A DNA stretch of 64,000 nt, taken from NCBI RefSeq assembly GCF_024204665.1, contig NZ_CP100355.1, positions 1,965,451-2,029,450 of the forward strand. Direction: 5' to 3'. The notes beneath the pieces were generated by a model. That model was not told the origin of the DNA, made no database searches, and was given only the letters and a program-made list of their open reading frames with translations. Below are positions 27,640 through 42,946 of this stretch, piece after piece (within the stretch, counting starts at the first letter, position 1; each line of letters begins with the position of its first letter). Position numbers and translations under genes: made by a program. The stretch comes from Natronosalvus rutilus (lineage in GTDB: Archaea > Halobacteriota > Halobacteria > Halobacteriales > Natrialbaceae).

Positions 27640-27978
27640 ACAAAACCGAGGAAGTAACCTTCAGTTATCAACCTTGTCGTGTGAAAATCGTACATTTATC
27701 TCATAAATCGGAATTTTAATTTCCACTTCAAAAGACACTCGAGCTCAGAGAATATACTGGCAGTCAGAAGAGGTAAACCGACCGATCTGACCTTCGGAGC
27801 GAACCCTGGAAGAGCGACGTTCGCGTATTCGGTTCGTGATCGTGACGGTTTTGCTTGTTGCTACGCCGGTCAATCACGCAGTCAGTGAAGCGACTCGAAC
27901 GGGAAAACAGGCGTTACCGAACGCAATGATCGAGTACCACCGGTTGGCTTTTCACGGAGGGTGGTGGTTACGAACCCT
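27640..27978. other. AT-rich divergent intergenic region
   Basis: This gap separates the minus-strand short PL14-like gene from the plus-strand ATP-grasp gene and holds no convincing gene. The part 27685-27730 is clearly AT-rich and contains ATAAATGTA on the minus strand (plus 27692-27706 region), a plausible TATA for the gene starting at 27639. A GGAGG sequence lies at 27956-27960, just before a possible GTG start of the ATP-grasp gene. Confidence 0.4.
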
Positions 27979-29214
27979 ATGTGTGCCGATCCGACGGTCC
28001 TCCTCCTCGATGGGGATTACCCGACAGCGCTGACCGTCGCGAGGGAACTCTCCGAGGATCTCGGTGCGACGATCGTCGGCGTTGGAACGACGCGATACAG
28101 CCGACTGCTCCGGTCGAGATACTGCGACGAGAAAATCCTCGCCCCTCCGCCGGAGAGCGAAGGATACGCCGACGCCCTCGAGTCTGCGGTTCGAACCCAT
28201 CGCCCGGACTTCGTCTTGCCGGTCGGGTACCAATCGACGGTCGCAGTCGACCGACTTCGGTCGATCCTTCCCTCCTCCGTTTCCACCTCTCTCCCCTCGA
28301 GCGAGTCGCTCCGTACTGGTGCCGACAAGTCCGCCGTCCTCGACCGTGCGGCCCGTCTCGGAATCGACGTTCCGACGGAGTACTCGAGCGTCGTCGAGCG
28401 AATCGACGCGAACGGGCGGCCGAGGAGTGCATTCGACCAACTGAACTTCCCCGTCTTTCTCAAGGCCAGACACGAATCCGGCGGTGGCGAGACGACCGCT
28501 CGAGTCGACGACCCTGCTCGCTTCTGGCGGACTTACGACCGCATTGTGGCGGTCGCTCCGGACGGGGACGTACTCGTCCAGGAGCTAATCGAGGGGACGG
28601 GGTCGACCTACGGAGTCGGCGTCCTCTGTTCGGACAACGACGTCGTGCTCAGGTTCAGTCACGAGGAACTTCAGTCCGTTCCTCGATGGGGCGGAAGTGG
28701 GACGCATCTTCGAACCTACCGAAACCCCTCTCTCGAGGCGCAGGCGACGGACTTGTTACAGGATCTGGGGTGGCACGGAATCGCACTCGTCGAGTTCAAG
28801 CGCCGTCCCAATGGGTCGTTCGTGCTCATGGAGGTGAACCCAAAGTTCTGGGCATCGTACGCACTGGCAAGCGAGCGTGGCTACCGATTCGCCTCGACGA
28901 TGATCGCGGCCGCTCTCGACTTAGACGTCGATCTCCCCGTCAGGTCTATCGGAACGGTCGACGAGATGGTATTTCCGCTTCGAGAACTCCAGTACTGCGT
29001 TCGGCAACCGACCCGGAACGAAATCTCGACCGCTCTCAGGACGGTACTGACCCCAGGGGCGAAGTGGAGTCTCGACTGGACCGACCCTGTCGCCTGGCTG
29101 ATGCCACCTGTCGCCGCGATGGAACGGGTACCCGACGTAGAGTCTCGAGTCGAGGCGGCCGTCGGGGCCGTAACCGGCCGTCAATCTCAGAACGTGGGAG
29201 AGGATCGACGATGA
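27979..29214 (+). CDS. ATP-grasp carboxylate-amine ligase-type protein (first of two)
   Basis: The product has 411 residues from ATG 27979; an in-frame GTG at 27961 is an alternative. The N-terminal pre-ATP-grasp part begins TVLLLDGDYPTALTVARELS. ATP-binding lysine segment: FPVFLKARHESGGGETT; then VLVQELIEGTGSTYGVGVL and the Mg-binding VLMEVNPKFWASYALA. This family (biotin carboxylase/D-Ala-D-Ala ligase fold) joins a carboxylate to an amine via acyl-phosphate. Relatives in sugar clusters are mostly unassigned. A second such gene lies at 40343-41545. It may attach an amino acid to a glycan or carrier; this is inference. Confidence 0.82.
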   Translation: MCADPTVLLLDGDYPTALTVARELSEDLGATIVGVGTTRYSRLLRSRYCDEKILAPPPESEGYADALESAVRTHRPDFVLPVGYQSTVAVDRLRSILPSSVSTSLPSSESLRTGADKSAVLDRAARLGIDVPTEYSSVVERIDANGRPRSAFDQLNFPVFLKARHESGGGETTARVDDPARFWRTYDRIVAVAPDGDVLVQELIEGTGSTYGVGVLCSDNDVVLRFSHEELQSVPRWGGSGTHLRTYRNPSLEAQATDLLQDLGWHGIALVEFKRRPNGSFVLMEVNPKFWASYALASERGYRFASTMIAAALDLDVDLPVRSIGTVDEMVFPLRELQYCVRQPTRNEISTALRTVLTPGAKWSLDWTDPVAWLMPPVAAMERVPDVESRVEAAVGAVTGRQSQNVGEDRR

Positions 29215-29438
29215 TAGGCTTCAGTGGGAACCGAATCGACAATGACGGGTGTCAGCGAGTTGACCGTGGACCCTGCGCTGGTTGCTCCAGCCAGGACGAC
29301 AGCCGGGCCGCACGTCTCGAGCGTACTTCCAATGAGCTATTCGTCCGGTATTGCGAGCGGTTTTCGAGCGTGCCTCGAGAAGAGTCAACTGGCCAACGAT
29401 CATTGAGAGGCGGACAGAAGGAGCGTGGTGATGCATGA
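29211..29438 (+). CDS. possible 75-residue coupled ORF
   Basis: ATG 29211 overlaps the ATP-grasp stop as ATGA, and its TGA at 29436-29438 overlaps the next start as ATGA. This is the pattern of tightly coupled operon genes. The product has Cys14, Cys23 and Cys26 (CQRVDRGPCAGC) and is not clearly acidic. However, third-position GC is only about 55%, below nearby genes, and another frame (29224-29406) looks no worse. No family is recognised, so it may be spacer that happens to be open. Confidence 0.3.
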   Translation: MIGFSGNRIDNDGCQRVDRGPCAGCSSQDDSRAARLERTSNELFVRYCERFSSVPREESTGQRSLRGGQKERGDA

Positions 29439-31264
29439 GGACGATGTTCGACCATGCCTACCTCGTTTCGAAGGTTTTTCTGATTCCCCTCGCCGCCCTG
29501 GGCGTCGCTGGTCCATTCGTCGTCGGCCGCGTGAACCTCTCGATCTTGGGACTCTACCTGGCCCTGCCGATGACGCTGGCCGTCGTCGTACTGTGGCGTG
29601 GGGGGAAGCGTCACTACCGAGAGCCGGTCGGGTGGATCGCCGTCGACTGGCGAGTGTTCTCCATCGTTTTTCACCTCGTCGTCTCGAGCCTCGTCGTCTC
29701 GCTTGCGATTTACGACGTCCGTCCTCTCGCGTTCTTCGTCGGACTCGCCGTCCTGTACGGACTGATCATCGTGTTGATCTGGTTGCCCAGCCTCGGCTCC
29801 GGTCGCACGCCGATCTGTTTGTACCACATGGTCGTCGCCTTCGCGCTCACCGTGTTCAGCGTGACGTTGAAGTACGACTTTTTTATCGGGAACACAGATT
29901 TGATCGTCCACGTCTCGCTGATCGATTCGCTCGTCGAAACCGGTGCGCCAGTGTCGTTAGAATTGTACGAACCGTTCCAGCTGTGGCACGTGTACGCGGC
30001 GACGACGCACCAGCTGCTGGGCGGATACCTGACGACCCACCGAACGGTGTACGTACTCAGCGGGGTGCTGTTTGGAGCCGGCATCCTCGCAGCGTATGGA
30101 TTCGGACGACGGGTCACGCTGAACGAACGAGTAGCGCTCCTGACGGCGCTGTTCACGATATTCCATCCGTTCTACACCTTCTACGGAATGTACTCGATTC
30201 CGCGGAGCGTCACCTCGATCGTCTTTCTCGCGCTCCTCGTCACCCTTCTCGGCCGGACGGCCCCTGGCATGCGCCTCGCTGGCCTGGTGTTTCTCGTCGC
30301 GATCGTCGTCTACCACCCCGTCTCTATCCCGTTCGTGTTCATCATCATGACGATCGTCTACGCGGTCGAACGAATCGTCAGGCGCTCGTCTGCGGTCGGG
30401 GCCCAACCGCCGACCGTCGACTCCTTCACGATGGTAACCACGGGGGTGATGACGCTCACCTACTGGCTGTACGCGGCCGAACCCCTGGTCGAAACGATCA
30501 TCGGAGCACTGACGAGCGCCGCATCGGGTTCTCGAACCGAACCGCCACCGCAGGGGGTCGTCGCCAGTCCGTGGGCGGAGGTCGCAAACTACGTCCCGTA
30601 CTCGTTTTTTATCTTCTTCATGCTCCTCGGTGCGCTGCTGTGGCTCCGGGACGACACCCGCGAGTGGATCGCGGCCGGTGTCATCGGCATTTCCGCGCTC
30701 CTACTCGTGCCCCTCTCCGTCCCGGGGCCCACCCTTCTCCTCGAGGGCCTCGCCGGGATCAACATTAATCGGTTCGTCCACTACACGTACATGTTCTTCG
30801 CGCTGACGGGGGCCATCGGCGCGTATCGGCTGTTCTCACGAGGCGGATTCAAATACTTCGTCGTTCTCGTGCTTCTGCTATCGCTCTTCGGCTTCACTGC
30901 AGTCTCCAACGACTTTGTCGCGAGGGACAACCCCGCCGTCGAGCGTCCGTTCTATACCTACTACCTGACCGAGCAGGAACGCCAGTCGTACGAGGATATC
31001 GACGCGATGTACGACGGGCTGATCGAAACCGATAGGCCGTCGTGTCGATACGTGGGCGAAATGCTCGACGCCGAGTGCGTCGTGGTCGACGCTGGTGCGG
31101 AGGACGCGATGTTCGCGGAAGCAGAGAGCGTACTGGTACGAGACGGCGAACTCGAGCGCCGTCCGTTGCAGTTCACGGCGTACGTCGACGAGGAGATTCC
31201 GCTCGAGAACCTGGCAGAGCGTAACCGTGTGTACGACTCCGGTTCGGTCACGTTCTACCGGTAG
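29435..31264 (+). CDS. multi-pass membrane protein, GT-C-like or polymerase-like
   Basis: The 609-residue protein has about twelve hydrophobic helices up to residue ~480 and a soluble C-terminal domain of about 120 residues. The first large external loop contains FIGNTDLIVHVSLIDSLVE, which resembles the acidic-His loop of GT-C transferases such as GT39/PMT or Agl-type proteins. It could be a lipid-linked-sugar glycosyltransferase or a Wzy-type polymerase; sequence alone does not decide. It lies between an ATP-grasp gene and an exported beta-helix protein in the glycan locus. Confidence 0.65.
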   Translation: MRTMFDHAYLVSKVFLIPLAALGVAGPFVVGRVNLSILGLYLALPMTLAVVVLWRGGKRHYREPVGWIAVDWRVFSIVFHLVVSSLVVSLAIYDVRPLAFFVGLAVLYGLIIVLIWLPSLGSGRTPICLYHMVVAFALTVFSVTLKYDFFIGNTDLIVHVSLIDSLVETGAPVSLELYEPFQLWHVYAATTHQLLGGYLTTHRTVYVLSGVLFGAGILAAYGFGRRVTLNERVALLTALFTIFHPFYTFYGMYSIPRSVTSIVFLALLVTLLGRTAPGMRLAGLVFLVAIVVYHPVSIPFVFIIMTIVYAVERIVRRSSAVGAQPPTVDSFTMVTTGVMTLTYWLYAAEPLVETIIGALTSAASGSRTEPPPQGVVASPWAEVANYVPYSFFIFFMLLGALLWLRDDTREWIAAGVIGISALLLVPLSVPGPTLLLEGLAGININRFVHYTYMFFALTGAIGAYRLFSRGGFKYFVVLVLLLSLFGFTAVSNDFVARDNPAVERPFYTYYLTEQERQSYEDIDAMYDGLIETDRPSCRYVGEMLDAECVVVDAGAEDAMFAEAESVLVRDGELERRPLQFTAYVDEEIPLENLAERNRVYDSGSVTFYR

Positions 31265-31335
31265 TACGACTCTCTCGTCTCGATGAGCGACAAACAGCGT
31301 CCCTTTCCGCCTCGAGGCACGACGACGCTGGCCGC

Positions 31336-32895
31336 TCACTCGACCGTCCAGGAGTACCAGTCCCCGTTTCGATAGATCGAGAGTCGCTCTGCGTCTGAAT
31401 CCGTGTCCGTCCAGGCGACGACGGCGCCCTCACGCCCGTGTTCGTGCCAGTCGCCATCGTCGGCCGGATTCGACGATCCGTTGTCACCGAGTCCATTGAC
31501 GACCGTTCGAACGTCCGTCGAAATCTCCCCCTGGACGTTGTCGACGGCAACGTCCGGGACGTCGACCTCCAGTACGACATCTTGGCGGTCGGTTTCGAGG
31601 GTGACGTCACGGACGACCCCGCCCCTGCCCGATTCGAAACGAATTGGCCGCACGGACTCGTATCGACCGCCGATCACGCGACAGTTCTGTGCGCTCCCGT
31701 TGAATCGTATCGGATACACGTCGCCGGTGAGCGTACACGAGCAGTCGAGGAACGCCGTTTCATCCCTGGCGACGATGATCGCATCCTCCGTAGCGCTGGA
31801 ATTCTTTTCACCGAAGAACGTACAGTCTCGAAACGTTACCAGGCCGTCGCCGCCCTCGCCGTTCTCGTTGACGACCGCGATCCGTCGGTCCGCGTCCGAT
31901 CCCAACCGGGAGCCGGTTATCGTCACCGACCTGCCGGAAGACGCGACCTCGAGCACCGACCGCGACCCCTCGGCGTCGTTGTACCCGTAGCAGTTCTCGA
32001 GACGGCAGTCGCCGTCTCGAAGCCAGTAGCCGCGGGCGTCGGACAACTCGGAATCGCGAACCCAGACGGCGCTGTCGCGAACGACACCGCCGATTCGAAT
32101 GTTCGAGATGTCGTTATCGATAGCTGTACAGTTCTCGACGACGACCGACCCGTTCGAACAGTAGAATCCGTTGTCGGCGCAGTTTCGAGCCAGGCTGTGC
32201 GTGATCGTTGCGACCGCGTTGTCGGTCGCCTCGACGTACACGCCGGCACCTGGCCCCCCGTTGACGACGCAATCGTAAATCTGTCCGCGGCAGTCTTCCA
32301 TCCCGATCAGTTCGATCATGCGACGCCCGCTCGTCGGCCTGCCCACTGTCATGATGTGCTCGAAAATCACGTCTCCGGTCGCGTACGAGACGACGGCCGA
32401 GCCTGCAACGCCGTCCTCTTCCTCGACGTTCCGGAAATCGAACTCGAAGCCGCCGATGTATACGTTGTGTCCACTGTACGACCGGGACGGACCAAGCGCG
32501 AACACCTTGGAATCGTAGACACCAACCCCTTCGAACGTCGAGGACGGTTCGATCGTTGCGTTGTAGCCGAGCAACCCGAAGTCTCGAAACGAGTCGTGCT
32601 CGAATCCAGCGTCCATCCGGTACGTCCCGGGTGGAAAGAGTACGAGGAGTTCGTCGCCGCCTTCCTCGGCGAGAATTTCCTCCAGAACTGGCGTGACGTC
32701 GTCTTCGCCGGTTGGGTCCGCTCCATAGTTGACGACGTCGACGTGTCGCCAGTGATCCGCGAGCGTCGCCTCGTTGGTGTCGGGGGCCGGTACGTTCCCG
32801 TCTTCGTCTATATCTGCACCCTGGCTGGACAACATGTAGCCAGTGATTGTCGGTGGGAGGCCACCAATTGCCGTCAGGTACTTCCGGCGGTCCAT
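31336..32895 (-). CDS. Tat-exported right-handed beta-helix protein
   Basis: The product has 519 residues from ATG 32895; an upstream in-frame start at 32943 would add 16 residues that do not fit a signal. The N-terminus MDRRKYLTAIGGLPPTITGY looks like a Tat signal. Then VVNYGADPTGEDDVTPVLEE and LLVLFPPGTYRMD are the classical opening of pectate-lyase-3/beta-helix proteins, and the body has repeated short strands (VENCTAIDNDISNIRIGG, RLENCYGYNDAEGS). Such proteins bind or cut polysaccharide outside the cell. No catalytic residues are assigned. It faces away from the FemAB-like gene. Confidence 0.78.
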   Translation of the reverse strand: MDRRKYLTAIGGLPPTITGYMLSSQGADIDEDGNVPAPDTNEATLADHWRHVDVVNYGADPTGEDDVTPVLEEILAEEGGDELLVLFPPGTYRMDAGFEHDSFRDFGLLGYNATIEPSSTFEGVGVYDSKVFALGPSRSYSGHNVYIGGFEFDFRNVEEEDGVAGSAVVSYATGDVIFEHIMTVGRPTSGRRMIELIGMEDCRGQIYDCVVNGGPGAGVYVEATDNAVATITHSLARNCADNGFYCSNGSVVVENCTAIDNDISNIRIGGVVRDSAVWVRDSELSDARGYWLRDGDCRLENCYGYNDAEGSRSVLEVASSGRSVTITGSRLGSDADRRIAVVNENGEGGDGLVTFRDCTFFGEKNSSATEDAIIVARDETAFLDCSCTLTGDVYPIRFNGSAQNCRVIGGRYESVRPIRFESGRGGVVRDVTLETDRQDVVLEVDVPDVAVDNVQGEISTDVRTVVNGLGDNGSSNPADDGDWHEHGREGAVVAWTDTDSDAERLSIYRNGDWYSWTVE

Positions 32896-33203
32896 ACGTG
32901 GCGAGAGACCACGTGTGGAGGGATACCAATTTCTCAGAAGCATGCCTATATGACCAGTTCAATTTGATATTTCGCCTGAGTATCCGTCGTTGGCAGCATT
33001 CTCTGGTAAGAGTGCCAGCCCGATTTGCGAACGGACGAACGGCGAGTGGCCGCCACCTGAACCAGGGCTGCGAGGATGGAGACACGCCTCCGACGCTGGA
33101 GTAATATCGCATTCCGGTCCCGTACCAGTAGGATAACAAAGGCCATCTCAGACGCACGTATCGACAGTTCGGCCAGTGCTGTCCGGTCTCGAGGATACTA
33201 GAG
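32896..33203. other. divergent intergenic region, no gene seen
   Basis: These 308 bp lie between the minus-strand beta-helix gene and the plus-strand FemAB-like gene. On the minus strand a CATATAGG sequence near 32943-32950 is a possible TATA element for the beta-helix gene. Small open frames here have no protein-like composition. Confidence 0.35.
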
Positions 33204-34244
33204 ATGAGTATCAGAATATCGGTATTGAACCCCGCCGATCGAGAATCGTGGAACGAATACGTCGACCGGTCGCCGCAAGGATCGGTCTTCCATCGGTACG
33301 ACGCGCTCAGAACACAGGCGACGTACTCGGACGCCAGACTGTACCCGCTCGTTGGATACAAGGGCCAGGAACCAATCGGAATCTTTCCCATATTTGAAAG
33401 CCACAAAGGTCCAGTCACGTTCGCCTTCTCCCCACCACACGGGTTACACGTCCCTATTCTCGGGCCCGCATTGCTCAACATGGACCAACTCAAGCAACGC
33501 AAGCGCGAGAAGCGACACAGTCGGTTCATCGACGGGTGTCTCGAGTGGATCGACCGCGAACTCGAGCCCAGGTACACCTCGATTCGAACGTCCTGGCGGT
33601 ACGACGACGTCCGACCGTTCAAGTGGAACGGTTTCGACGTCCACCCGAGTTACACCTACGTCGTCGACCTCGACACCGACGAAGAGACGTTGATCCGTCG
33701 ATTCAGTCGAACGACGCGTCGAACGATCCGAAACCATCTCGACGACGAGTACACCGTGACGGTCGGCGGCGTCGACGAGGCCAGGTGGATCATGGAGCAG
33801 GTGGTCAGCCGATTCGAAGAGCAAGGGAAGACCGCAACAATGTCGCCGTCGTTCGTAGCCGAACTCTACGAACGGCTTCCCGACGGTGTCGTGAACCCGT
33901 ACGTGCTTTCCGTCGACGGAGACCCCGTCACCGGTACGATTCTCCTCGTGGACGGGGAGACGGCTCACCGATGGCAAGGTGGAACGAAGCCCGGGACGTC
34001 TCTTCCAGCGAACGAACTCCTCGAGTGGCGGATGCTCACCGACTCCATGGAACGCGGTGTCAGTGATTACGAACTCGTCGACGCCAACATCCCACGAATT
34101 AACGCATGGAAGTCGAAGTACAATCCGAACGTCCGGACGTACTATACGATGTATCGGTCCGGTCGGGGAATGGCCGCCGCCGTTCAGCTGTATCTCAGGC
34201 TTCGGGATCGAAACGAACTCGTCACGAAACTCGCACCAGGCTGA
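33204..34244 (+). CDS. FemAB/GNAT-like acyl or aminoacyl transferase (first of two)
   Basis: This 346-residue protein begins ISVLNPADRESWNEYVDRSP and has QGSVFHRYDALR, the usual start of the FemAB-like/Acetyltransf_6 family. The C-terminal half has DGDPVTGTILLVDGETAHRW and LLEWRMLTDSMERGVSDYEL, matching the second GNAT lobe. FemX proteins move amino acids from tRNA onto peptidoglycan precursors; archaeal members in sugar clusters may acylate or aminoacylate glycans. It is paired with a related gene at 35940-37040, with a flippase between. Confidence 0.8.
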   Translation: MSIRISVLNPADRESWNEYVDRSPQGSVFHRYDALRTQATYSDARLYPLVGYKGQEPIGIFPIFESHKGPVTFAFSPPHGLHVPILGPALLNMDQLKQRKREKRHSRFIDGCLEWIDRELEPRYTSIRTSWRYDDVRPFKWNGFDVHPSYTYVVDLDTDEETLIRRFSRTTRRTIRNHLDDEYTVTVGGVDEARWIMEQVVSRFEEQGKTATMSPSFVAELYERLPDGVVNPYVLSVDGDPVTGTILLVDGETAHRWQGGTKPGTSLPANELLEWRMLTDSMERGVSDYELVDANIPRINAWKSKYNPNVRTYYTMYRSGRGMAAAVQLYLRLRDRNELVTKLAPG

Positions 34245-34356
34245 GAAAACGGTTCTCGAGTCAGCCGCTCAATTCGAGCCGCAAATAGATTTGAGTCGTT
34301 CGGAAGCCGAACGTAGCCTCCAGCGATCGGATGTACGACGCGTCGGCCTATTCACG

Positions 34357-35883
34357 TCATTCGTGGCGGGTCGGAATCCGCTCGATCAGTTCGAGCAACT
34401 GACGTTCGACCGTTTTCGGCAGCGCAGTCGCGCTAGCAATCTCCTCGAGGTCGTCACTCGTGATCGCACCGGTCATGATTGAGGCGACGGCGAACACGAT
34501 CGCACCGAACGGCGGGACGATCACGAGGGAGAGGATCGACGAGTCGATCGTCCACGAAACGAGAAAGATCGACGTTGCCGATACGATGATCGTGACGAAC
34601 GTAGCCCCCCAGCGGATGCCCGCGAGCGGTCGGTACCCCATCCGTCGAGCGATGGCCGTCTGGAACACGACGAGGCTTCCGTAGCCGATCGACGTCGCGA
34701 TGGCGGCCCCGATCATTCCGTAGCCCGGAATCAACAGCAGGTTCAACAGTACATTGATCAGCGAACTGGCACCAGTCGCGACGAGGAGCGGACGAAGCGA
34801 TCGCCTGGCCTGGTTGATGGCGAGGGACGGTCTCGCGACCGCGAACCCGAGCACCCCCGGAAGCAGCAACAACAGGGGCGTGATCGCCGGTCGAAACGAC
34901 TCACCCAGGTAGAGCGGAACGAAGTCGGCTGCCAGCGCAGCGAGGCCGAGTACCAGCAACGTCGTAAACAGGAACACGTACCGCGTAACGATTTGTGATT
35001 GTTGCTCGATAGCGTCGATGTCCCCACGCTCCCAGAGGTGCGAGACACGCTGTAAGAGCGCGTACTGAACGGCGATCGGTGCGAACCACAGGACTTCGGC
35101 GATCACCAGCGCGCCTTTGTAGTATCCCACGAATTCGTCGGACAACCAGACCTGGAGCAAGAGCACGTCGACGTGGTACAGGGACGTCAAAAAGAGGAAG
35201 AAACCGATCGTGCTCGCGGTGTAGGTGAGAATCTGTCGTTTCGGAAGGTCCACACCGCTTGAGAAGAAGGCCTGGCGAACGGGCAACAGACGGCTGACGA
35301 TTGCCAATCCGAACACGATGGTGAACGCACTGGAGACGATGGATCCGAGCAATACGCCCTCGACGCCGTATCCATGGTAGACGAACGTGATCGCGAACGC
35401 GACGAATAGCGTCTCCTTGACTACTTTTAGCGGTTCCGAGCGAGACTCCAATTGGAGTCCCATGAGCGTCCACAGGACGTGCGTCGCCAGCTGGTTGAAA
35501 ACGAGGTACGCGGCAAGCACGTAGAAGAGTGACGTAAACGCCGGTCCGAACGTGGATGCTGCGAGACCCGTGTACGCCGCCAGAGAGAATAGCGTAGCGG
35601 CGAGGAGCCCGATGAAGAACACCGCTCTGAACACGTACCCGAAGATGGCGGCTTGCCACGCCGCGTCCGACCGCTCGGAGATATACTTTCGAACCGTATC
35701 GCCCGTTCCCGAGACCAGAACGATTCCGACGACGGAATAGACGGATAGGACGAGCGCGTACCGACCGTACTCGACCGGTCCGAGGAGCCGAACGAGAACC
35801 GGTGTGAACCCCACTCCGAGGAGTAAGATGTACGCCTTCGAAACGATGATCGAGACGACCGCGGATGAAAATGAATTGCGCAT
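34357..35883 (-). CDS. oligosaccharide flippase (Wzx/MATE-like)
   Basis: The 508-residue protein has 12-14 hydrophobic helices. It begins SFSSAVVSIIVSKAYILLLG and LVRLLGPVEYGRYALVLSVY, the standard N-terminal motif of the polysaccharide biosynthesis/flippase family, which moves lipid-linked oligosaccharides across the membrane. It is translated in the same direction as the FemAB-like gene upstream (57 nt gap), so the two may be cotranscribed. It converges with the first FemAB gene. Confidence 0.88.
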   Translation of the reverse strand: MRNSFSSAVVSIIVSKAYILLLGVGFTPVLVRLLGPVEYGRYALVLSVYSVVGIVLVSGTGDTVRKYISERSDAAWQAAIFGYVFRAVFFIGLLAATLFSLAAYTGLAASTFGPAFTSLFYVLAAYLVFNQLATHVLWTLMGLQLESRSEPLKVVKETLFVAFAITFVYHGYGVEGVLLGSIVSSAFTIVFGLAIVSRLLPVRQAFFSSGVDLPKRQILTYTASTIGFFLFLTSLYHVDVLLLQVWLSDEFVGYYKGALVIAEVLWFAPIAVQYALLQRVSHLWERGDIDAIEQQSQIVTRYVFLFTTLLVLGLAALAADFVPLYLGESFRPAITPLLLLLPGVLGFAVARPSLAINQARRSLRPLLVATGASSLINVLLNLLLIPGYGMIGAAIATSIGYGSLVVFQTAIARRMGYRPLAGIRWGATFVTIIVSATSIFLVSWTIDSSILSLVIVPPFGAIVFAVASIMTGAITSDDLEEIASATALPKTVERQLLELIERIPTRHE

Positions 35884-35939
35884 GGTTCAGACTGGAGCGT
35901 GCGTTCGTCCCGGTGACCGCGTGCTACTCGGAAGTCTGA

Positions 35940-37040
35940 TCACGAGAAAACCTGACCAACAACTCTCGATTTGATTTCCGCCGTTCTTTCTCGAAGGGTC
36001 TCGGGGGTATCCGGCGTCGAGGACGTAACCCACCGGTGAGCGACACGTCCGCCGTTCAGCGCCGCCAGGGCGACCTGTGGATAGCCCCGTTCCCACGTGA
36101 GGCTGGGGGCCGCGCGGGTAGCGAAGCGTTCCTTGAATCGAAACAGTCCATTTCGAAAGTCGGGCTCCGTTCCGCGGAAGTTGTACGTCTCGTAGCCATT
36201 GTCGATGGCCCACTTGATGGCGTGTTCGTGGATCAACTCCGACGCGTTGTGCTCGAAGTGATCCTCCGTAACGCCCGAACAGAGGTAGTGAAGCATCGAC
36301 CGTTCGTCGTCCAGCACGAACACCATCAGTCCACGTCGCGCTCCATCGATGTGGAGCGAGAATACCTTGATCCGTTCGGGGAAGTTGCGGAGTTCGAGAA
36401 AGAACGCTCGAGTCAATCGAGCGCCGCCGACGCGTTCCGCGACGTCGGTATAATTCGAATGCATCTCACTGAGGACTGCTCTGGTCAGTTCTTCTTCGAC
36501 GACCTCCCCGTCGTGATCGTGTCCTCGCCTGATCGCCCGTCGCCTCGAGCTATCCATCTCCGCGAGGAGGGCGTCCCAGTCGCGCGACGTATCGAGGAGC
36601 ATGTCACAGTTAGTAATTCGCAGGCTGTACCCGTGTTCCAGAAAGCTATCGTGGTATCGAACGTAGGACGAATCGACGTTGCTGATCTGATGGAAGCGAA
36701 CCGGCCCGTCACAGAGGCGGGCCGTCGATTCGAGTATCAGCTCGAGCGCGGTTTCCTCGTCGCCCATGGCGATCGGACCTCCCGAGCCCGGTCTAATACT
36801 GTTGAGGCGTCGAACCGGGATTGACCCAATCGAACCGACGAAGTTTGGAGAAATCGCGATGGGATTGCCCTTCTTTTTGACGAGTAGATGACGTGACTCT
36901 AGCGGTTGGCCCCGTTCGACTGCTCGAAGCCAGCCGTAACGATGGAAGACGCTTCCCAGATCGGCCTGCTCAACGACGTGGTTCCACTGGTTTCGATCGG
37001 CCTGTTCGATACTGTCGAGTCGCGTTACAGTGAGGGACAT
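35940..37040 (-). CDS. FemAB/GNAT-like acyl or aminoacyl transferase (second of two)
   Basis: The 366-residue protein begins LTVTRLDSIEQADRNQWNHV and ADLGSVFHRYGWLRAVERG, the same pattern as the gene at 33204-34244. It has SSRRRAIRRG and, near the end, HYLCSGVTEDHFEHNASELI followed by HEHAIKWAIDNGYETYNFRG, a typical FemAB-like C-terminal lobe. The similarity shows an old duplication rather than a recent one. Transfer of an amino acid or acyl group to a cell-surface glycan is inferred. Confidence 0.8.
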   Translation of the reverse strand: MSLTVTRLDSIEQADRNQWNHVVEQADLGSVFHRYGWLRAVERGQPLESRHLLVKKKGNPIAISPNFVGSIGSIPVRRLNSIRPGSGGPIAMGDEETALELILESTARLCDGPVRFHQISNVDSSYVRYHDSFLEHGYSLRITNCDMLLDTSRDWDALLAEMDSSRRRAIRRGHDHDGEVVEEELTRAVLSEMHSNYTDVAERVGGARLTRAFFLELRNFPERIKVFSLHIDGARRGLMVFVLDDERSMLHYLCSGVTEDHFEHNASELIHEHAIKWAIDNGYETYNFRGTEPDFRNGLFRFKERFATRAAPSLTWERGYPQVALAALNGGRVAHRWVTSSTPDTPETLRERTAEIKSRVVGQVFS

Positions 37041-37571
37041 AGGGCTTCGTTACGGTCGATCAACAGCCCACGGGGAGGCAGAAATAACTTCGTCCGAATC
37101 CTCAGAGTAGTGTGACGTTTTCGACCGTGGCTCGAGGATGAATCGAATCCTGCGACGGCGAAACTCCCATCGGTCCTCTCGAGTCGAACCGAGTAGTACT
37201 CGTCTGCCCCGATATCGTTGGTCCTCGTTTCGATGGTTCCGTTCGCACCTGACCGACGATGTCGATCGCGATTTCGGATCACCGCTATCTGGTTGAGATA
37301 GACGTCTCGGATCGTGTGGAATTCCTGACTACCGAAGAGGTCGGTATACCGTTTCAGATACACTGTGAACGGCATCGATCCGGGTGACAGACGCGCCTCA
37401 CATCTGTTCTGCAGCCAGTACCCGATCACTACATTCAGGTCACGGATCAATGAGCGGGGATACGGCTTACAGACGGTGGGGCGAACGTATTTCAATCGTG
37501 GATTACTCGAGAAACGCCACGAATACGGTCGCTATAGTTTTTACCGCGTTGCTCGTTCGGTCCGTCCACAG
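37041..37571. other. intergenic region, no confident gene
   Basis: A minus-strand frame is open from 37495 to 37025 and overlaps the FemAB-like start by 16 nt, but its third-position GC is about 58%, below real genes here, and no family is recognised. It could be an eroded gene. CTATAGTTTTTA at about 37532-37543 on the plus strand is a good TATA candidate for the small membrane gene starting at 37572. Confidence 0.4.
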
Positions 37572-37841
37572 ATGAGACCGCACCGAATGCGGTTCGTCCT
37601 CGTTCAGTGTTCATGGTTGCTGGGAACGGTACTCGTGCTCTCGGTGACCGGACTCTTCACTTACGGCCTGTTTATTCTGTTCTCCGCACTCGGCGTCGCC
37701 ATCTTGACGAACCTGCTCACTATGTCACACGTGCAGCCGCGATGGGTCGATCGACCACGAATCCTCACCAAGGTCTTGCTGGCGGGCGCCGCAGCGGTGC
37801 TCTGCTACCGTTTCGTCACCCTGTTCGTCCTGTCGCCATAG
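37572..37841 (+). CDS. small three-helix membrane protein
   Basis: This 89-residue protein has three hydrophobic helices (about 6-28, 30-45 and 63-86). The start at ATG 37572 suits the TATA element about 35 nt upstream. It ends CYRFVTLFVLSP. Similar small membrane proteins are common in haloarchaea, but their role is unknown. The second ATG (37587) could also be used. Confidence 0.6.
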   Translation: MRPHRMRFVLVQCSWLLGTVLVLSVTGLFTYGLFILFSALGVAILTNLLTMSHVQPRWVDRPRILTKVLLAGAAAVLCYRFVTLFVLSP

Positions 37842-37979
37842 CCAGTGCTCCGTCACGCGTTAATCGATGAGACGAACGGGACACGAATATCGGTTCGTCT
37901 CACCACTTCAGATTCGACACGACACCAGTTCACCGGTGGCAGCCGGGATATCAGCGACAGCCTTTGTTTCGAACGACGC

Positions 37980-38846
37980 CTACCGATACTCGAGGACCCA
38001 CGTTCCGTCGTTGGATAGCGCGGTGGCCTCGAACGAGATCCGGCGGTCGAGACCCACTGCGAGACCCACTGCGAGGAAGGAGGCGACCGGGTGGTCGAAC
38101 TGATCCAGAGGGCCGAAGACGCTCCCCGAAATAGTGATCGTGACAACTCTTTCGTCCGGTCGCACGGTCGCGTCGGCGTCCGTGACGAACTCGAAACGGC
38201 GTTTGAGTGAATCGGTCAACTGTTCGACCAGTAATTCCGGGGAGGTTGCGACCGGTTCGTCCAGTGCCCGCTCGAACTCCCGGAACAGCGTTGCCCCGGT
38301 CGGCTCGAGGACGAGTCCACGTTCCCCCGAGTCGACGATAGAGAATCCAGCCGCATCTTGGACGCCGCCGTCGACGGCGGCCGGGACGAATAGCCGAGCC
38401 TCGGATTCGACACCGTCCGGGTTCGGCACGTAAATTCGCTCGGTATTCGAACCGAACGTCGCTGTGATCGCCTCGAGGTTGGTCGCACACGTCTTGTACA
38501 CCTCGGCCCCATCTCTGGCCTCGATCGATCGCGTCCCCGTCACTCCGTACGTTAGAACGCTGGCGAACAACCCGATCCCGCCGAGCGAGAAGAGGACTTC
38601 ACGACCCGCCGATACGACGAACCCGGCGGCGAAACAGAACACACCGATGGCGACGAATCCCGCTATCGTGAGTCGCTCGCGTGTCGTTCGAGTGGCGACG
38701 GGGAACTGTACCGTCCGATCACGAACGACGGAGGTTCCGGCACCATTGGCTGGAGCAGTTCCTCCTTCGAAAGCCCGCTTTTCACCGCCCTGATCGAACG
38801 CAGCGGATGACGCATCCGGCGTGCTATCGTACTCTTCCGGGCTCAT
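37980..38846 (-). CDS. uncharacterised haloarchaeal membrane protein
   Basis: The product has 288 residues from ATG 38846; an upstream in-frame start at 38972 is less likely. A polar N-terminus is followed by two adjacent transmembrane helices (about residues 62-80 and 85-105), then a cytosolic or external domain with IEARDGAEVYKTCATNLEAI and ERGLVLEPTGATLFREFERA and LEPTGATLF-like segments. Similar proteins accompany surface-sugar clusters, but I cannot name a family with confidence. It is divergent from the DUF1616 gene. Confidence 0.6.
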   Translation of the reverse strand: MSPEEYDSTPDASSAAFDQGGEKRAFEGGTAPANGAGTSVVRDRTVQFPVATRTTRERLTIAGFVAIGVFCFAAGFVVSAGREVLFSLGGIGLFASVLTYGVTGTRSIEARDGAEVYKTCATNLEAITATFGSNTERIYVPNPDGVESEARLFVPAAVDGGVQDAAGFSIVDSGERGLVLEPTGATLFREFERALDEPVATSPELLVEQLTDSLKRRFEFVTDADATVRPDERVVTITISGSVFGPLDQFDHPVASFLAVGLAVGLDRRISFEATALSNDGTWVLEYR

Positions 38847-39238
38847 GTGGGGGTACTCAAGCGAGACGTCGGTTCGTTCGGATGGGAGGTTTCGTCGACG
38901 CACCACCGTGCCTTCTGAAGCCAGCGAGGGTCGGATAGGCGTCGAGGGCACGAACCAGCTTCGTCCCGCCACCGAGGGACGTGCGAGCGATCGTGGCCGT
39001 CTGTGGGGGTCGTCACAGTGTCTCTTCCCAAACTACCGAGGACCACTGCTTTAAATTGCTGGTCGTCAATCACGGTTTACCTGTCGTTGACGGGTCTAAA
39101 CGGACGATTTCTTGCAGTGAGGCCGCGGCCATATCGCGCATTACGACAGCGTTTGGTGGTCCAACTATCATCGGGCCCAGACAGTCCGGACAACCGTCCA
39201 TCCGATTTTAATCGCGGTTCGTGAAAGACACAGAGAGG
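38847..39238. promoter_or_regulatory. divergent promoter region
   Basis: No gene is seen. On the plus strand TTTTAAT at 39206-39212 is about 30 nt before the ATG at 39239, which implies a leaderless DUF1616 message and argues against an upstream in-frame GTG at 39221. On the minus strand an AATTTAAAG element near 39050 could serve the gene starting at 38846, though it is some 200 nt away. Confidence 0.45.
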
Positions 39239-40255
39239 ATGATCCGCTCCCTCGTCAGACCGCACGTTCGTCGACTACCAGTGGACCTGACGGTAATCCT
39301 CTCTCTGACGGCCCTGACGAACGTCGTCGTGCTGGCCCCGGTGATACGTGAAACGCCCCTTCGCGTTCCGATCGGCCTCGTCTTCATCTTCGTCGCTCCA
39401 GGATACGCGCTGATTGCTCTCGTGTTCCCGGAGCGCGGGCCAGTAGACCGGTTCGACGATGCCAGTGGCAAAGTTCAGTCACCGACGACCATTCTTGAAC
39501 GCCCCCGGTCGTGGTGGGGAACGATCGACGGCCCGGAACGCATCGCGTTTTCAATCGCTTCGAGTGCCATTATCGTTCCGGTGATCGGTTTCATCCTGAT
39601 CACTGCGCAGGGGACGTTCCGATTTGGACCGACGTTCGTCGCCGTCTCGGCCGTTACCGTCGCCCTCACGGTCGGTGCAATCTGGAGACGCCTGGCACTC
39701 CCGCCGGACGATCGGTTTCGAGTTCCATATGGCGAGTGGACGGGCACCCTTCGTGCGGCGGTGTTCGATCCCGACTCTCGGGGTTCAGCGATCTTGAACG
39801 TCGCACTGGTCTGTACGATATTGCTCGTGATCGCGAGCGTTGGATACGCCGCCACGGCACTCCCACAGGACGACGAGTACTCCACGATTTACGTTCTCTC
39901 CGAGGACGATGCGGATTCGGTACTCGAGATCCCGCCAGGAGAGAGCCAGGAAGTCGTCGTGGGGGTCGACAACCACGAACGACGTACGACGACGTACACG
40001 GTCGTCGTCGTCGAACAGGAGATGGACGTCTCGGAAAACGAAACCCGTGTCGTGGACCAGCGAGAACTCGAGCGGTTCGAGATGACGACCGATCACGGCG
40101 AGACGTGGCGTCTCGCTCACGACGTCGAGCCGACCACGAACGGCGAGGTGCGCATCGTCTGGTTGCTGTACGTCGACGGCGACGCTCCTGCGGAGCCGTC
40201 GATCGAGTCCGCACCATACCGGGTGCACCTGTGGGTCGAGGAAGGCGATTCGTGA
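39239..40255 (+). CDS. DUF1616 membrane protein
   Basis: The product has 338 residues. Four hydrophobic helices lie in the first 200 residues, with LTVILSLTALTNVVVLAPVI and VPIGLVFIFVAPGYALIALV followed by FPERGPVDR, the opening of the DUF1616 family. The C-terminal part is an external beta-rich domain (PPGESQEVVVGVDNHERRTT, VRIVWLLYVDGD). DUF1616 proteins are frequent in archaeal glycosylation or exopolysaccharide clusters; the function is unknown. Confidence 0.85.
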   Translation: MIRSLVRPHVRRLPVDLTVILSLTALTNVVVLAPVIRETPLRVPIGLVFIFVAPGYALIALVFPERGPVDRFDDASGKVQSPTTILERPRSWWGTIDGPERIAFSIASSAIIVPVIGFILITAQGTFRFGPTFVAVSAVTVALTVGAIWRRLALPPDDRFRVPYGEWTGTLRAAVFDPDSRGSAILNVALVCTILLVIASVGYAATALPQDDEYSTIYVLSEDDADSVLEIPPGESQEVVVGVDNHERRTTTYTVVVVEQEMDVSENETRVVDQRELERFEMTTDHGETWRLAHDVEPTTNGEVRIVWLLYVDGDAPAEPSIESAPYRVHLWVEEGDS

Positions 40256-40342
40256 GTATTCGTGATGGAGAAACGGCGAACCCGTTGCCCACTTCGACTC
40301 CTCTCTACCTGCTTTGGCTCCTTCCTACCCCACTTCAACTCC

Positions 40343-41545
40343 CTACCCGATCCTGTTCTGGAGAACCCGTCGGAGTTCGCGCGAGAACGGAACGGGATCG
40401 TCGAGTCGAAAGACGTCGAAGTGAGGCGTCCGGACGCACGACTCGAGAATGTCTCGTGCCATAGCCAGGACCGGGGGTCGGTCGACGAGTATCGGCTTGT
40501 CTCGTCGAAGACTGAGCAGGTAGTGTGCTTCGCCGTAGAGGTAGTGACTCCTGACGCCACGTTCGTACCTCGTGTCGATCGACGAGCCACGGCCGAGCGC
40601 CTGCTGCCAGTAGTACGCCGGGAAGTCGGCGCCCGCCCGGACCGCACAGGGGAGCGATTGCCAGAACCGGGGGTTGATCTCGAGCAGTTTGTACTCGCCG
40701 GTGGTGACGTCTTTGGCGTACTCGATGCACGCGATACCGTGCCAGTCGAGGCTATCCAGTAGCGTCCGGCCGACCGCCTCCAGTTCTGGATCGTGTATGG
40801 ATTCCCGATAGACGCCGCCACCGCCGGTGTAGGACGTCCCGCGGATCTGTCGGTGCTGGAACGTCGCAACCGCCTCGCCCTGGTCGTACAGCGCGCCGAA
40901 CACGTACTGGTCGTCGTGTTGAATGTACTCCTGGACGATCGGTTCGTGTCGCATACCGGAGCGAATCGTCGCTTTGTCGGGTTCGTCTCCGGGTTTGACG
41001 TAGACGACGTCCTTTTCGACCGCGGACGTATCCGAGGCGAGCGACGGAGTGAGTTCCGCGGTGAGAAGATTGTACCTGGATTTGATGACGAACGCGTCGT
41101 CCCACCGGTCGACCTCGTCAAGACATCGCGTTTCGGGAACCGGAACGCCGGCCTCGCGAGCGGCGTCGAAGAGTTTCGTCCGGTCGTTGACGACTTCGAG
41201 CGCCTCGGTCGGCGGTGCGATCACTGACGCGTATCGTTCGAACTCGTCTCGGTAGGTCGCGAACACGTACGGATCGGCCGGGCGGAGCGGGAGGATCGTT
41301 CGGACGTCCGGTCGAGCGGCGATTCCCTTCAGTGCGTCTTTGTACGCGACGAGGTCGTCGTCGGGGGAACAGATCTGGATCTGTTCGTCACAGAATCGCG
41401 ATCCGCCAGCGGGAACGTCTTCGTGTTCCGAGGCGACGACCGTGTGGACCCCGCGGTCGGCGAGCGAGCGAACGCACGTGTAGCAGGCGGGGTTGAATTT
41501 CGCGGGGAGCAGGACCGCTCCCCGGCCGGACGCGTCGGTGACCAT
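40343..41545 (-). CDS. ATP-grasp carboxylate-amine ligase-type protein (second of two)
   Basis: The product has 400 residues. N-terminal part: RGAVLLPAKFNPACYTCVRS, then the ATP-binding segment DAFVIKSRYNLLTAEL and the metal-binding LLEINPRFWQSLPCAVRAGA. It shares the overall plan and the E-[IV]-NP-[RK]-FW motif with the ligase at 27979-29214, so the two are paralogues. The family forms amide or related bonds with ATP. The reaction here is unknown. Confidence 0.82.
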   Translation of the reverse strand: MVTDASGRGAVLLPAKFNPACYTCVRSLADRGVHTVVASEHEDVPAGGSRFCDEQIQICSPDDDLVAYKDALKGIAARPDVRTILPLRPADPYVFATYRDEFERYASVIAPPTEALEVVNDRTKLFDAAREAGVPVPETRCLDEVDRWDDAFVIKSRYNLLTAELTPSLASDTSAVEKDVVYVKPGDEPDKATIRSGMRHEPIVQEYIQHDDQYVFGALYDQGEAVATFQHRQIRGTSYTGGGGVYRESIHDPELEAVGRTLLDSLDWHGIACIEYAKDVTTGEYKLLEINPRFWQSLPCAVRAGADFPAYYWQQALGRGSSIDTRYERGVRSHYLYGEAHYLLSLRRDKPILVDRPPVLAMARDILESCVRTPHFDVFRLDDPVPFSRELRRVLQNRIG

Positions 41546-41863: not shown

Positions 41864-42946
41864 ATGCGAATCGCGTTCGTCTCCTTCGAAACCGCCCACC
41901 ACCGAGAGACGGAGACGAACGAACGGTTCCGGACCGTTCTCGAACTCCTCACCGACCGCGGCCACGACATCCACGTCTGCTGTGCCCAGTTCTGGCCAGG
42001 CGAGGCGTCTACGCTCGAGCGAGACGAGATCACCTACCACGGCGTCTCGACCGGCCTCGAGGCACGCCAATCGTTCCTGCTTCGCCTCCCGTTCGTCCTC
42101 CGATCGATCGGCCCGGACGTGATTCACGCGAGCGCCGATCCCACGGGCCAGGTGCGAGCGGCCAACTGGGGGGCGACGCTGGCTCGAGCCCCGCTGGTCC
42201 TCGAATGGTACGGTGCGGGGATCGGCGTCGACGGCGCCGTCGGCATCCCGGACGACCGCGGCCATCGCTACGCGGCCAGGAACGCGGACCACATCGTCAC
42301 ACCGTCGCGGATGGTCCGGACCTGGGTCAGAGAGCGGGGCGCGTCGGGCGACCGGGTCGACGTCGTCCCGAACCCGATCGACGTCGAGCGGATCGAGGCG
42401 ACGCCGCCGGGCGACTGGGTCGACGTGGTCTACGCCCGGCGGCTCGACGAGGGGGCGAACCTCGAGAGCCTGCTCCTGGGGCTCGCGGAACTCCGGGACC
42501 GCAACTGGCACACGCTCGTCCTCGGGGACGGCCCGCAGCGAGGGATGTACGAGCAACTCGCGCGGGACCTGCGGATCGACGACCGGGTGACCTTCGCCGG
42601 GGAGACGAGTCGGGACGAGCGCATCGCGGCCTACCGGAGCGCACACGTCTTCGCCCAGACCGCCACCGAGTGCGTCTTCCCGACCGAGTTCGCCTGGGCG
42701 CTCGGTGCGGGCTGTGTCGGCATCGTTGAGTACCACGCCGACTCCGCGGCCCACGAACTCGTCGAGGGCTGGGAACGGGGCTTCCGGACCACGAGTGAGC
42801 AGGAACTCGCCGACGCCATCCTCGAGGCTGGCGACCTCGAGCACCGGACCTACGACGAGTCGTTCGCGGACCTGGATCGAGAGGCGGTGCTGGAGACGTA
42901 TCTCGAGACCTATCGGGAGCTCCAGGACGCACGCGGCCTGCTCTAG
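41864..42946 (+). CDS. family 4 glycosyltransferase
   Basis: This is a 360-residue GT-B enzyme. N-terminal: MRIAFVSFETAHHRETETNE. C-terminal donor-binding part: DVVPNPIDVERIEATPPGDW, AYRSAHVFAQTATECVFPTE and FAWALGAGCVGIVEYHADSA, with the family's E-x7-E-type region. It would add a sugar to a growing glycan in the cytosol. It is the rightmost clear member of the glycan locus, followed by a sensor kinase. Confidence 0.87.
   Translation: MRIAFVSFETAHHRETETNERFRTVLELLTDRGHDIHVCCAQFWPGEASTLERDEITYHGVSTGLEARQSFLLRLPFVLRSIGPDVIHASADPTGQVRAANWGATLARAPLVLEWYGAGIGVDGAVGIPDDRGHRYAARNADHIVTPSRMVRTWVRERGASGDRVDVVPNPIDVERIEATPPGDWVDVVYARRLDEGANLESLLLGLAELRDRNWHTLVLGDGPQRGMYEQLARDLRIDDRVTFAGETSRDERIAAYRSAHVFAQTATECVFPTEFAWALGAGCVGIVEYHADSAAHELVEGWERGFRTTSEQELADAILEAGDLEHRTYDESFADLDREAVLETYLETYRELQDARGLL

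Follow-up and report, generated by a model that had tools for sequence, protein, structure and literature searches.

A candidate locus for an acidic surface glycan bearing amino acids in Natronosalvus rutilus

The genome of Natronosalvus rutilus contains a region in which two ATP-grasp ligases and two FemAB-like transferases are encoded among genes for the synthesis and export of a glycan. We give an even chance to the interpretation that this region produces and exports an acidic surface glycan that is rich in amino-uronic sugars and bears amino acids or short groups joined by amide bonds. Gene content, protein folds, catalytic residues and conserved linkage form the basis of this interpretation.

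Composition of the locus

The window that was analysed is a 64-kb stretch of the N. rutilus genome, and the two ATP-grasp and two FemAB-like genes span 13.6 kb of it. The features of the locus are as follows.

15434..16009, + strand: hexapeptide acyltransferase, WbpD-like (PF00132, 1.6e-26)
16049..17038, + strand: Gfo/Idh/MocA oxidoreductase, WbpB-like (PF01408, 2e-24)
17031..18626, + strand: UDP-sugar 6-dehydrogenase 1 (PF03721, 5.2e-39)
18614..19939, + strand: UDP-sugar 6-dehydrogenase 2 (PF03721, 2.6e-35)
19333..21012, + strand: GT2 glycosyltransferase reading frame (PF00535, 7.2e-18); true start probably further in
21009..22100, + strand: DUF354 protein, glycosyltransferase-like (PF04007, 1e-10)
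21965..23161, + strand: UDP-GlcNAc 2-epimerase (PF02350, 2.9e-99); true start probably further in
22971..24050, + strand: polysaccharide-deacetylase-like protein; true start probably further in
24329..26371, - strand: secreted paralogue of the next protein, with C-terminal repeats (from its translation; the two cluster)
26674..27639, - strand: secreted protein with very weak polysaccharide-lyase similarity (PF14099, 0.015, under the cut-off)
27979..29214, + strand: ATP-grasp ligase A, ATPgA (PF02786 above cut-off, catalytic residues, fold)
29435..31264, + strand: integral membrane protein, about 13 transmembrane (TM) segments by count
31336..32943, - strand: beta-helix protein, pectate-lyase type (PF12708, 1.8e-9)
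33204..34244, + strand: FemAB-like double-GNAT transferase 1, FemA1 (Acetyltransf_6, 8.5e-15)
34357..35883, - strand: oligosaccharide flippase (PF01943, Polysacc_synt, 1.1e-11; 12 hydrophobic segments, about 12 TM)
35940..37040, - strand: FemAB-like double-GNAT transferase 2, FemA2 (FemAB, 1.8e-10; FemX by profile and fold)
37980..38972, - strand: protein that has two hydrophobic segments and is a conserved part of the locus (orthologues in relatives)
39221..40255, + strand: DUF1616 membrane protein (PF07760, 1.3e-84)
40343..41545, - strand: ATP-grasp ligase B, ATPgB (conserved catalytic residues, carboxylate-amine ligase relatives)
41864..42946, + strand: GT4 glycosyltransferase (PF13579, 3.4e-18)

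An earlier note on this DNA had placed the two ATP-grasp genes, the two FemAB-like genes and a flippase between the FemAB pair, and we find all five where it put them. The flippase adjoins FemA2 on the same strand and has the family assignment and the approximate TM count of a Wzx-type protein. The 13-TM protein at 29435, for which no Pfam family was found, is conserved near ATPgA and FemA2 in relatives and is a possible polymerase or GT-C type enzyme. The deacetylase-like protein is 60% identical to a RefSeq polysaccharide deacetylase of Haloferax mediterranei, and homologues of the secreted protein at 26674..27639 flank ATPgA in Natronococcus. The DegT aminotransferase that is expected for the synthesis of diacetamido-uronic acids is absent from the window; full-length DegT aminotransferases are present elsewhere in the genome. 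Orthologues of ATPgA, ATPgB, FemA1, FemA2 and the flippase in Natronosalvus caseinilyticus are 91-94% identical. We rejected mis-annotation or decay as an account of the four genes because the orthologues and the catalytic residues are intact.

The ligases and the transferases

Both ATP-grasp proteins look active from their sequences, with the catalytic residues kept in each. The ATPgA reading frame opens at 27961 and we prefer the ATG at 27979 as its start because the orthologues favour that position. This protein passes the Pfam CPSase_L_D2 model (PF02786; 26.1 bits against a cut-off of 19.8), has a predicted biotin carboxylase/CPS fold and keeps K168, Q207-E208, E278, E291 and N293 invariant among 17 orthologues. 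ATPgB falls under the Pfam cut-offs (23.0 against 29.1 and 18.9 against 23.2), yet it retains the ATP-grasp catalytic residues (invariant K155, Q205-E206, E275, E289 and N291); it is 27.7% identical to ATPgA across 278 amino acids, and its relatives carry the RefSeq name carboxylate-amine ligase. Profiles were required to place these proteins, since phmmer searches of the PDB with single ATP-grasp sequences gave almost no matches. Both are closer to CPS/biotin carboxylase and to PRK12767-type proteins than to TupA, a family for which Pfam scans (E 0.01) gave no match to either.

The closest solved relatives of FemA1 and FemA2 are aminoacyl-tRNA-dependent transferases, judging by sequence profiles and, for FemA2, a structural model; this agrees with the statement of the earlier note that FemAB relatives transfer amino acids. 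FemA2 scores above the curated FemAB (PF02388) cut-off (40.6 bits against 24), and its profile finds FemX (2.8e-9) and an aminoacyl-tRNA-dependent peptide synthase (3.3e-6) as the top PDB matches. Its AlphaFold (AF2) model (pLDDT 87) has a predicted double-GNAT fold that Foldseek matches to FemX (1.8e-16, probability 1.00, TM 0.63/0.68), to Sbb17/Sba18 (about 1.5e-14) and to S. aureus FemX, FemA and MprF. In the FemA2 alignment, R211 of FemX lies opposite a leucine and Y215 opposite a phenylalanine, so that the acceptor site for UDP-MurNAc-peptide, to which we take these two residues to belong (Arg211 presumably contacting UDP-MurNAc), is not kept, a difference to be expected where murein is absent. 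Given this leucine and a host that has no murein, the acceptor of FemA2 must differ from UDP-MurNAc-peptide. FemA2 K303, invariant in 20 sequences, aligns with FemX Lys305, which PMC12945691 describes as catalytic, and the invariant F302 aligns with FemX F304. The FemA1 profile has the S. aureus lipid II:glycine glycyltransferase as its top match (6e-9); FemA1 itself passes Acetyltransf_6 (55.6 bits against 22) but fails FemAB (16.2 against 24), and this failure counts against the amino acid interpretation.

Double-GNAT proteins may also take acyl-CoA. It is possible, although we give it a distinctly smaller chance than amino acid decoration, that the Fem-like proteins are acyl-CoA-dependent N-acyltransferases of amino sugars (adding acetyl, hydroxybutyryl or similar groups) and that the ATP-grasps attach no more than ammonia or a simple amine to the uronic acids, leaving a glycan that is free of amino acids. 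The much better score of FemA1 on Acetyltransf_6 than on FemAB and the RefSeq name of its family, GNAT N-acetyltransferase, are in keeping with this, as are the N-acetyl groups, and not amino acids, on solved haloarchaeal exopolysaccharides, the AsnB-like amidotransferases within or next to such genes, and the amidation of GlcA with serinol or ethanolamine in Campylobacter jejuni (PMC11800379). On the other hand, aminoacyl-tRNA enzymes, and not acetyltransferases, head the solved matches of both Fem profiles, all aligned FemA2 sequences keep the catalytic lysine of FemX, and a dedicated acyltransferase, the hexapeptide protein, is already encoded in the locus.

Linkage in other haloarchaea

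ATP-grasp and FemAB genes are linked above chance. The 4.3-Mb genome of N. rutilus holds just 5 places that match Acetyltransf_6, and its ATP-grasp genes of the ATPgA/ATPgB type number 3, yet two of each fall within the 13.6 kb. Across 273 related genomes, at least 22 Fem places among the matches listed have an ATP-grasp gene within 10 kb, where random placement predicts 1.4, a comparison among genomes related by descent whose P value is a rough guide. The linkage is also seen in the ATPgA-FemA2 pair, which is conserved across genomes and occurs in two contexts: with a flippase in Natronococcus, Halovivax and Natronosalvus (FemA2 and the flippase being adjacent in the first two as well), and as a stand-alone pair. 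The spacing of the two genes is about 2-8 kb (10 sampled genomes plus Halovivax, Natronococcus, Natronosalvus, Natrialba and Natrarchaeobius) and their divergences are correlated (r=0.77, 0/2000 permutations). The earlier note had proposed a search for the same four genes in other haloarchaea; ATP-grasp and FemAB do co-occur repeatedly, but the strict set of ATPgA, ATPgB, FemA1 and FemA2 was seen only in the two Natronosalvus genomes. A commoner unit combines FemAB, a polysaccharide deacetylase, diacetamido-uronate genes, a flippase and DUF1616, frequently with an ATP-grasp, and loci of this kind are found in H. mediterranei, Haloprofundus, Halorussus and probable Halococcus. The H. mediterranei locus lies on a plasmid (NZ_CP039140.1, 343341-377105) and includes two FemAB genes, the deacetylase and an ATP-grasp. 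Some ATP-grasp loci lack FemAB and some FemAB loci lack an ATP-grasp, both being points against the amino acid pathway.

In its stand-alone form, which occurs in Natrialba, Natrarchaeobius and relatives, the pair lies beside seryl-tRNA synthetase, with no glycan genes nearby, and is accompanied by c6, an alpha/alpha-barrel gene. This arrangement, together with the FemA2 matches to MprF-type lipid aminoacyltransferases, could mean that ATPgA and FemA2 are a free-standing amide-forming pair, acting on a small molecule, lipid or protein, that was merely recruited to a glycan locus. We think this unlikely: the c6 family has weak glycosidase/lyase similarity and also occurs within glycan loci of H. 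mediterranei and Halalkalicoccus, next to FemAB and a deacetylase, and the pair accompanies a flippase in three genera. A search for c6 in the genome of the window, run without a positive control, gave no match. Least likely of all is that unrelated surface-glycan genes have gathered in shared genomic islands and that the four enzymes serve different polymers, for although GC content dips in the region (0.57-0.62 against about 0.65) in an island-like manner and the FemA1 and ATPgB families have numerous copies elsewhere, the two contexts and correlated divergences of ATPgA and FemA2, and the adjacency of FemA2 and the flippase, speak against it.

A possible pathway and its known counterparts

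For the amino acid interpretation we infer the substrates, the aminoacyl donor, the order of the steps and the amino acids in the product. The UDP-sugar dehydrogenases, the Gfo/Idh oxidoreductase, the hexapeptide acyltransferase and the 2-epimerase would supply nucleotide-linked (di)acetamido-uronic acids, and the deacetylase-like protein would expose a free amino group on the sugar. Both FemAB-like enzymes may then take an amino acid from aminoacyl-tRNA and attach it to the acidic glycan at this group, a step modelled on FemX, which acts on a peptidoglycan precursor, and on the streptothricin enzymes, which act on an amino sugar. The ATP-grasps would spend ATP on another amide bond, in which a uronic carboxylate is most likely joined to an amine or an amino acid. 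These decorations would precede export of the lipid-linked unit by the flippase, with polymerisation possibly by the 13-TM protein.

The solved exopolysaccharide of H. mediterranei consists of GlcNAcA/Man/GlcNAcA-3-sulfate and is free of amino acids (PMC3191746). This weighs against the exported, amino-acid-bearing glycan that the earlier note proposed and that the Fem relatives, the active-looking ATP-grasps and the export setting favour. The known polymer may stem from another cluster, because it also lacks the diacetamido-uronic acids that the H. mediterranei locus should make. Gene deletion is routine in that species. The FemAB proteins, deacetylase, ATP-grasp and flippase of this locus type are testable candidates there, as they are in probable Halococcus. 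If the pathway is correct, aminoacyl-tRNA-dependent transferases decorate surface glycans in archaea that have no peptidoglycan.

The wall polymer of Natronococcus occultus is reportedly a polyglutamine glycoconjugate. That polymer (Niemetz et al. 1997, cited in PMC9943897) and the N-glycyl-glucosamine of the Halococcus morrhuae wall (Steber and Schleifer 1979, cited in PMC4187196) contradict the view of the earlier note that an amino-acid-bearing glycan is not established for haloarchaea. In our literature search we found no paper linking FemAB, ATP-grasp and exopolysaccharide, and none assigning genes to the amino acids of haloarchaeal wall polysaccharides. What is new here is the candidate genes, including two FemAB genes next to a deacetylase in several probable Halococcus genomes, where FemAB, deacetylase and flippase share one locus; no ATP-grasp lies within the stretch taken. 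A FemAB gene on a Halococcus dombrowskii plasmid lies outside any glycan locus.

Among bacterial systems, the FemABX enzymes (Weissella FemX, S. aureus FemA/FemX) resemble FemA2 in the predicted double-GNAT fold, the profile match and the F304-K305 motif, but they differ in the Arg211 position and in serving a murein that the archaeal host lacks. The XrtA/PEP-CTERM-associated FemAB family (TIGR03019) of bacterial exopolysaccharide loci is the top NCBIfam match of FemA2 (2.9e-11), which nevertheless falls far under its cut-off (43 against 260 bits). The streptothricin-type FemX-like synthases (Sbb17, Sba18 and Orf11 of BD-12) match FemA2 by Foldseek and profile. With Gly-tRNA as its donor, Orf11 aminoacylates streptothrisamine, which PMC12945691 describes as an amino sugar intermediate. 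Synthases of this type act on a free antibiotic intermediate in Streptomyces, whereas the setting here is a glycan export locus. The ATP-grasp amidoligase domain of C. jejuni Cj1438 amidates the GlcA carboxylate in the capsule (PMC11800379), and here too an ATP-grasp gene accompanies genes for a polysaccharide and its uronic acids; Cj1438 is TupA-like, unlike ATPgA and ATPgB, a difference judged via the family alone. The H. morrhuae wall contains a haloarchaeal polysaccharide in which an amino sugar carries an amino acid through an amide bond (PMC4187196), and there the product is known. A bolder proposal, which we regard as doubtful, is that a tRNA route (the paired FemAB proteins) and an ATP route (the ATP-grasps) together furnish an amino-uronic polymer of haloarchaea with short peptides or amide cross-links, with the FemAB branch making the N-glycyl-glucosamine bridges of Halococcus; such a structure would be a separately evolved functional counterpart of the interpeptide bridge of peptidoglycan.

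Composition of the glycan locus

The window (G000:C1:1965451-2029450) belongs to a 4.3 Mb genome and contains all five genes claimed in an earlier note: two for ATP-grasp proteins (ATPgA, ATPgB), two for FemAB-like transferases (FemA1, FemA2) and one for a flippase. Its genus is Natronosalvus (Natrialbaceae), since plasmids identify two congeners as Natronosalvus caseinilyticus (G237) and N. amylolyticus (G100). The ATG at 27979, where that note began ATPgA, is the favoured start because the orthologues begin at the same point. The flippase and FemA2 genes are neighbours on the minus strand with a 56-base gap.

Genes of the locus (window coordinates)
15434, plus: hexapeptide acyltransferase, upstream side
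16049, plus: Gfo/Idh oxidoreductase, upstream side
17031 and 18614, plus: two UDP-sugar dehydrogenases, upstream side
19333, plus: GT2, upstream side
21009, plus: DUF354, upstream side
21965, plus: UDP-GlcNAc 2-epimerase, upstream side
22971, plus: polysaccharide-deacetylase-like, 60% identity to a Haloferax mediterranei protein that RefSeq names polysaccharide deacetylase
24329 and 26674 (span 24329-27639): two secreted paralogues, polysaccharide-lyase similarity very weak
27979-29214, plus: ATPgA
31336: beta-helix protein, pectate-lyase type
33204-34244, plus: FemA1
34357-35883, minus: flippase
35940-37040, minus: FemA2
39221: DUF1616, downstream side
40343-41545, minus: ATPgB
41864: GT4, downstream side

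The secreted paralogues may act on the polymer as lyases or bind it; towards the C-terminal end of the larger one a repeat of about 75 aa occurs three times, and similar proteins flank ATPgA in Natronococcus. A multi-PAS histidine kinase (43039-45294) lies directly downstream of the locus, and outside it is a membrane protein (11896-12948) with a lysylphosphatidylglycerol synthase TM region (PF03706, 1.6e-28). The GC content is 0.57-0.62 at 26001-40000 against about 0.65 around it, resembling an acquired island.

Together with a DegT enzyme, the acyltransferase, Gfo/Idh oxidoreductase, dehydrogenase and 2-epimerase make up a Wbp-type pathway to 2,3-diacetamido-uronic acids. No DegT gene was found within the window; one lies between the acyltransferase and Gfo/Idh genes in a relative (G055), and full-length DegT genes are present elsewhere in the host genome. 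Sugars of this type are known from the exopolysaccharide of Haloferax denitrificans (PMC3191746).

The ATP-grasp and FemAB-like proteins

ATPgA and ATPgB share 27.7% identity over 278 residues, and orthologue alignments show the catalytic Lys, Glu and Asn of ATP-grasp enzymes to be invariant in both families; the fold of ATPgA resembles that of biotin carboxylase and carbamoyl phosphate synthase. When a FemA2 profile built from 20 sequences was searched against the PDB, the top match was Weissella FemX (2.8e-9), followed by an aminoacyl-tRNA-dependent peptide synthase (3.3e-6). The AlphaFold model of FemA2 (pLDDT 87) matched FemX (1.8e-16), Sbb17/Sba18 (about 1.5e-14), S. aureus FemX and FemA, and then MprF. 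FemX Lys305, a residue to which catalysis is ascribed (PMC12945691), and F304 correspond to K303 and F302 of FemA2, both invariant. In the profile alignment a leucine replaces FemX Arg211, a UDP-MurNAc contact, so the acceptor differs from that of FemX. FemA1 is more distant, falling under the Pfam FemAB cut-off and sharing only 22.5% identity with FemA2; its profile best matches a lipid II:glycine glycyltransferase (6e-9). FemAB-like proteins could in principle use acyl-CoA, a point against tRNA-dependent transfer.

Linkage in related genomes

A survey of 273 genomes from the order found ATPgA orthologues (at least 46% identity) in 17, the window's own included; they stand well apart from a broad cloud of paralogues at 35% identity or less; relatives of FemA2, FemA1 and ATPgB occur in 72, 171 and 133. 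The earlier note raised the question whether its four-gene set co-occurs in other haloarchaeal genomes. The ATPgA-FemA2 pair does recur, spaced by about 2-8 kb in 10 further genomes of those sampled, but the strict set was seen only in G000 and in Natronosalvus caseinilyticus (G237). Distances of the two proteins are correlated (r=0.77; 0/2000 permutations), as would be expected if they were inherited jointly, though the common history of the species contributes to this as well. ATP-grasp genes lie within 10 kb of 22 Fem genes against 1.4 expected, an indicative figure since it concerns related genomes and the places listed.

The pair has two contexts among the named loci. In Natronococcus jeotgali, N. 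pandeyae, Natronococcus sp., Halovivax and Natronosalvus hydrolyticus it sits in a glycan locus, with a flippase and a 29435-type membrane protein, and in several such loci a FemA1 relative is close by. In Natrialba and Natrarchaeobius it forms a stand-alone cassette with an intervening alpha/alpha-barrel gene (c6) beside seryl-tRNA synthetase (L069 4294-11095, L072, L078), and no glycan genes were found in those stretches. This neighbour is suggestive of a tRNA-dependent enzyme, although the synteny may be due to chance.

Loci of similar kind are found more widely. Haloferax mediterranei pHME505 (343341-377105) carries two FemAB-like genes, c6, deacetylase, 2-epimerase, dehydrogenase, Gfo/Idh, DegT, acyltransferase, DUF354, AsnB-like, flippase-like, DUF1616 and GT2 genes, and an ATP-grasp protein 52% identical to ATPgB. 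An asparagine-synthase-like amidotransferase is encoded in the Haloferax mediterranei locus (L086 21425-23287) and directly before an ATP-grasp gene in Haloterrigena salifodinae (L103 2525-5636). Halorussus limi has two FemAB genes, ATP-grasp, flippase and DUF1616 inside 18 kb. Two genomes of Halorussus type, G130 and G136, have clusters in which two ATP-grasp genes are interspersed with two or three FemAB genes; a flippase gene is either part of the cluster or adjacent to it. A 48 kb plasmid of Haloprofundus salinisoli (L101) holds a compact, near-complete locus (ATP-grasp, diacetamido-uronate genes, deacetylase, FemAB, two flippases); the whole trait may therefore be mobile.

A candidate for a known wall sugar

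The earlier note took amino acids on a haloarchaeal glycan to be new. This needs correction: N-glycyl-glucosamine has been known in Halococcus walls since 1979 (Steber and Schleifer 1979, as cited in PMC4187196, the only paper that our literature search on it found). A 2026 Halococcus genome paper does not mention FemAB or glycosyltransferases. The top matches (60-71% identity) to a FemAB protein encoded on a Halococcus dombrowskii plasmid come from one genome group (f6 g25), whose pst genes are closest to those of the same plasmid (in several about 80% over kilobases, against about 70% for outgroups) and one of whose contigs best matches Halococcus plasmids (84-91%). These comparisons make it fairly certain, though not beyond doubt, that the group is Halococcus. 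Six of these probable Halococcus genomes share a locus (L104-L111) of FemA1, phosphatase-like, acyltransferase, DegT, Gfo/Idh, dehydrogenase and GT2 genes, to which flippase, 2-epimerase and deacetylase are mostly added where the stretch extends far enough. The second FemAB gene is in the same stretch in three of the six (L104, L105, L111) and about 10 kb off in G093; it is on a different contig in G105 (beside a deacetylase) and in G061, and about 465 kb off in G053, which shows that linkage of the two is not universal. Within these stretches no ATP-grasp gene was present; G061 has two about 44 kb off. Synthesis of N-glycyl-glucosamine would call for deacetylation and then the action of a FemAB enzyme, which makes this locus a candidate for it. 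The main interest of our findings lies here, in candidate genes for a wall feature that is known chemically but is genetically an orphan.

The reading of the earlier note, a glycan carrying amino acids, is supported in part: folds, residues and gene linkage are observed, while donor, acceptor, order and product are what we infer from them. Nucleotide (amino)uronic acids would be synthesised and then built up on a lipid carrier, an amine would be freed by deacetylation, amino acids would be loaded from tRNA by the FemAB enzymes, further amides would be formed at carboxylates by the ATP-grasp enzymes, and the unit would be flipped outward. The solved exopolysaccharide of Haloferax mediterranei contains no amino acid (PMC3191746), which counts against the proposal. 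It also lacks the diacetamido-uronic acids that the pHME505 locus should yield, and this polymer may therefore not be the product of that locus; coordinates of the exopolysaccharide cluster were not found in the literature searched.

Both enzyme kinds have precedents. Campylobacter jejuni Cj1438, an ATP-grasp enzyme from a polysaccharide locus, acts on a uronic acid (PMC11800379). The streptothricin enzyme Orf11 is Gly-tRNA-dependent and glycylates streptothrisamine (PMC12945691), a reaction termed aminoacylation of an amino sugar in the title of a work cited there. The locus is a variant use of already known kinds of enzyme.
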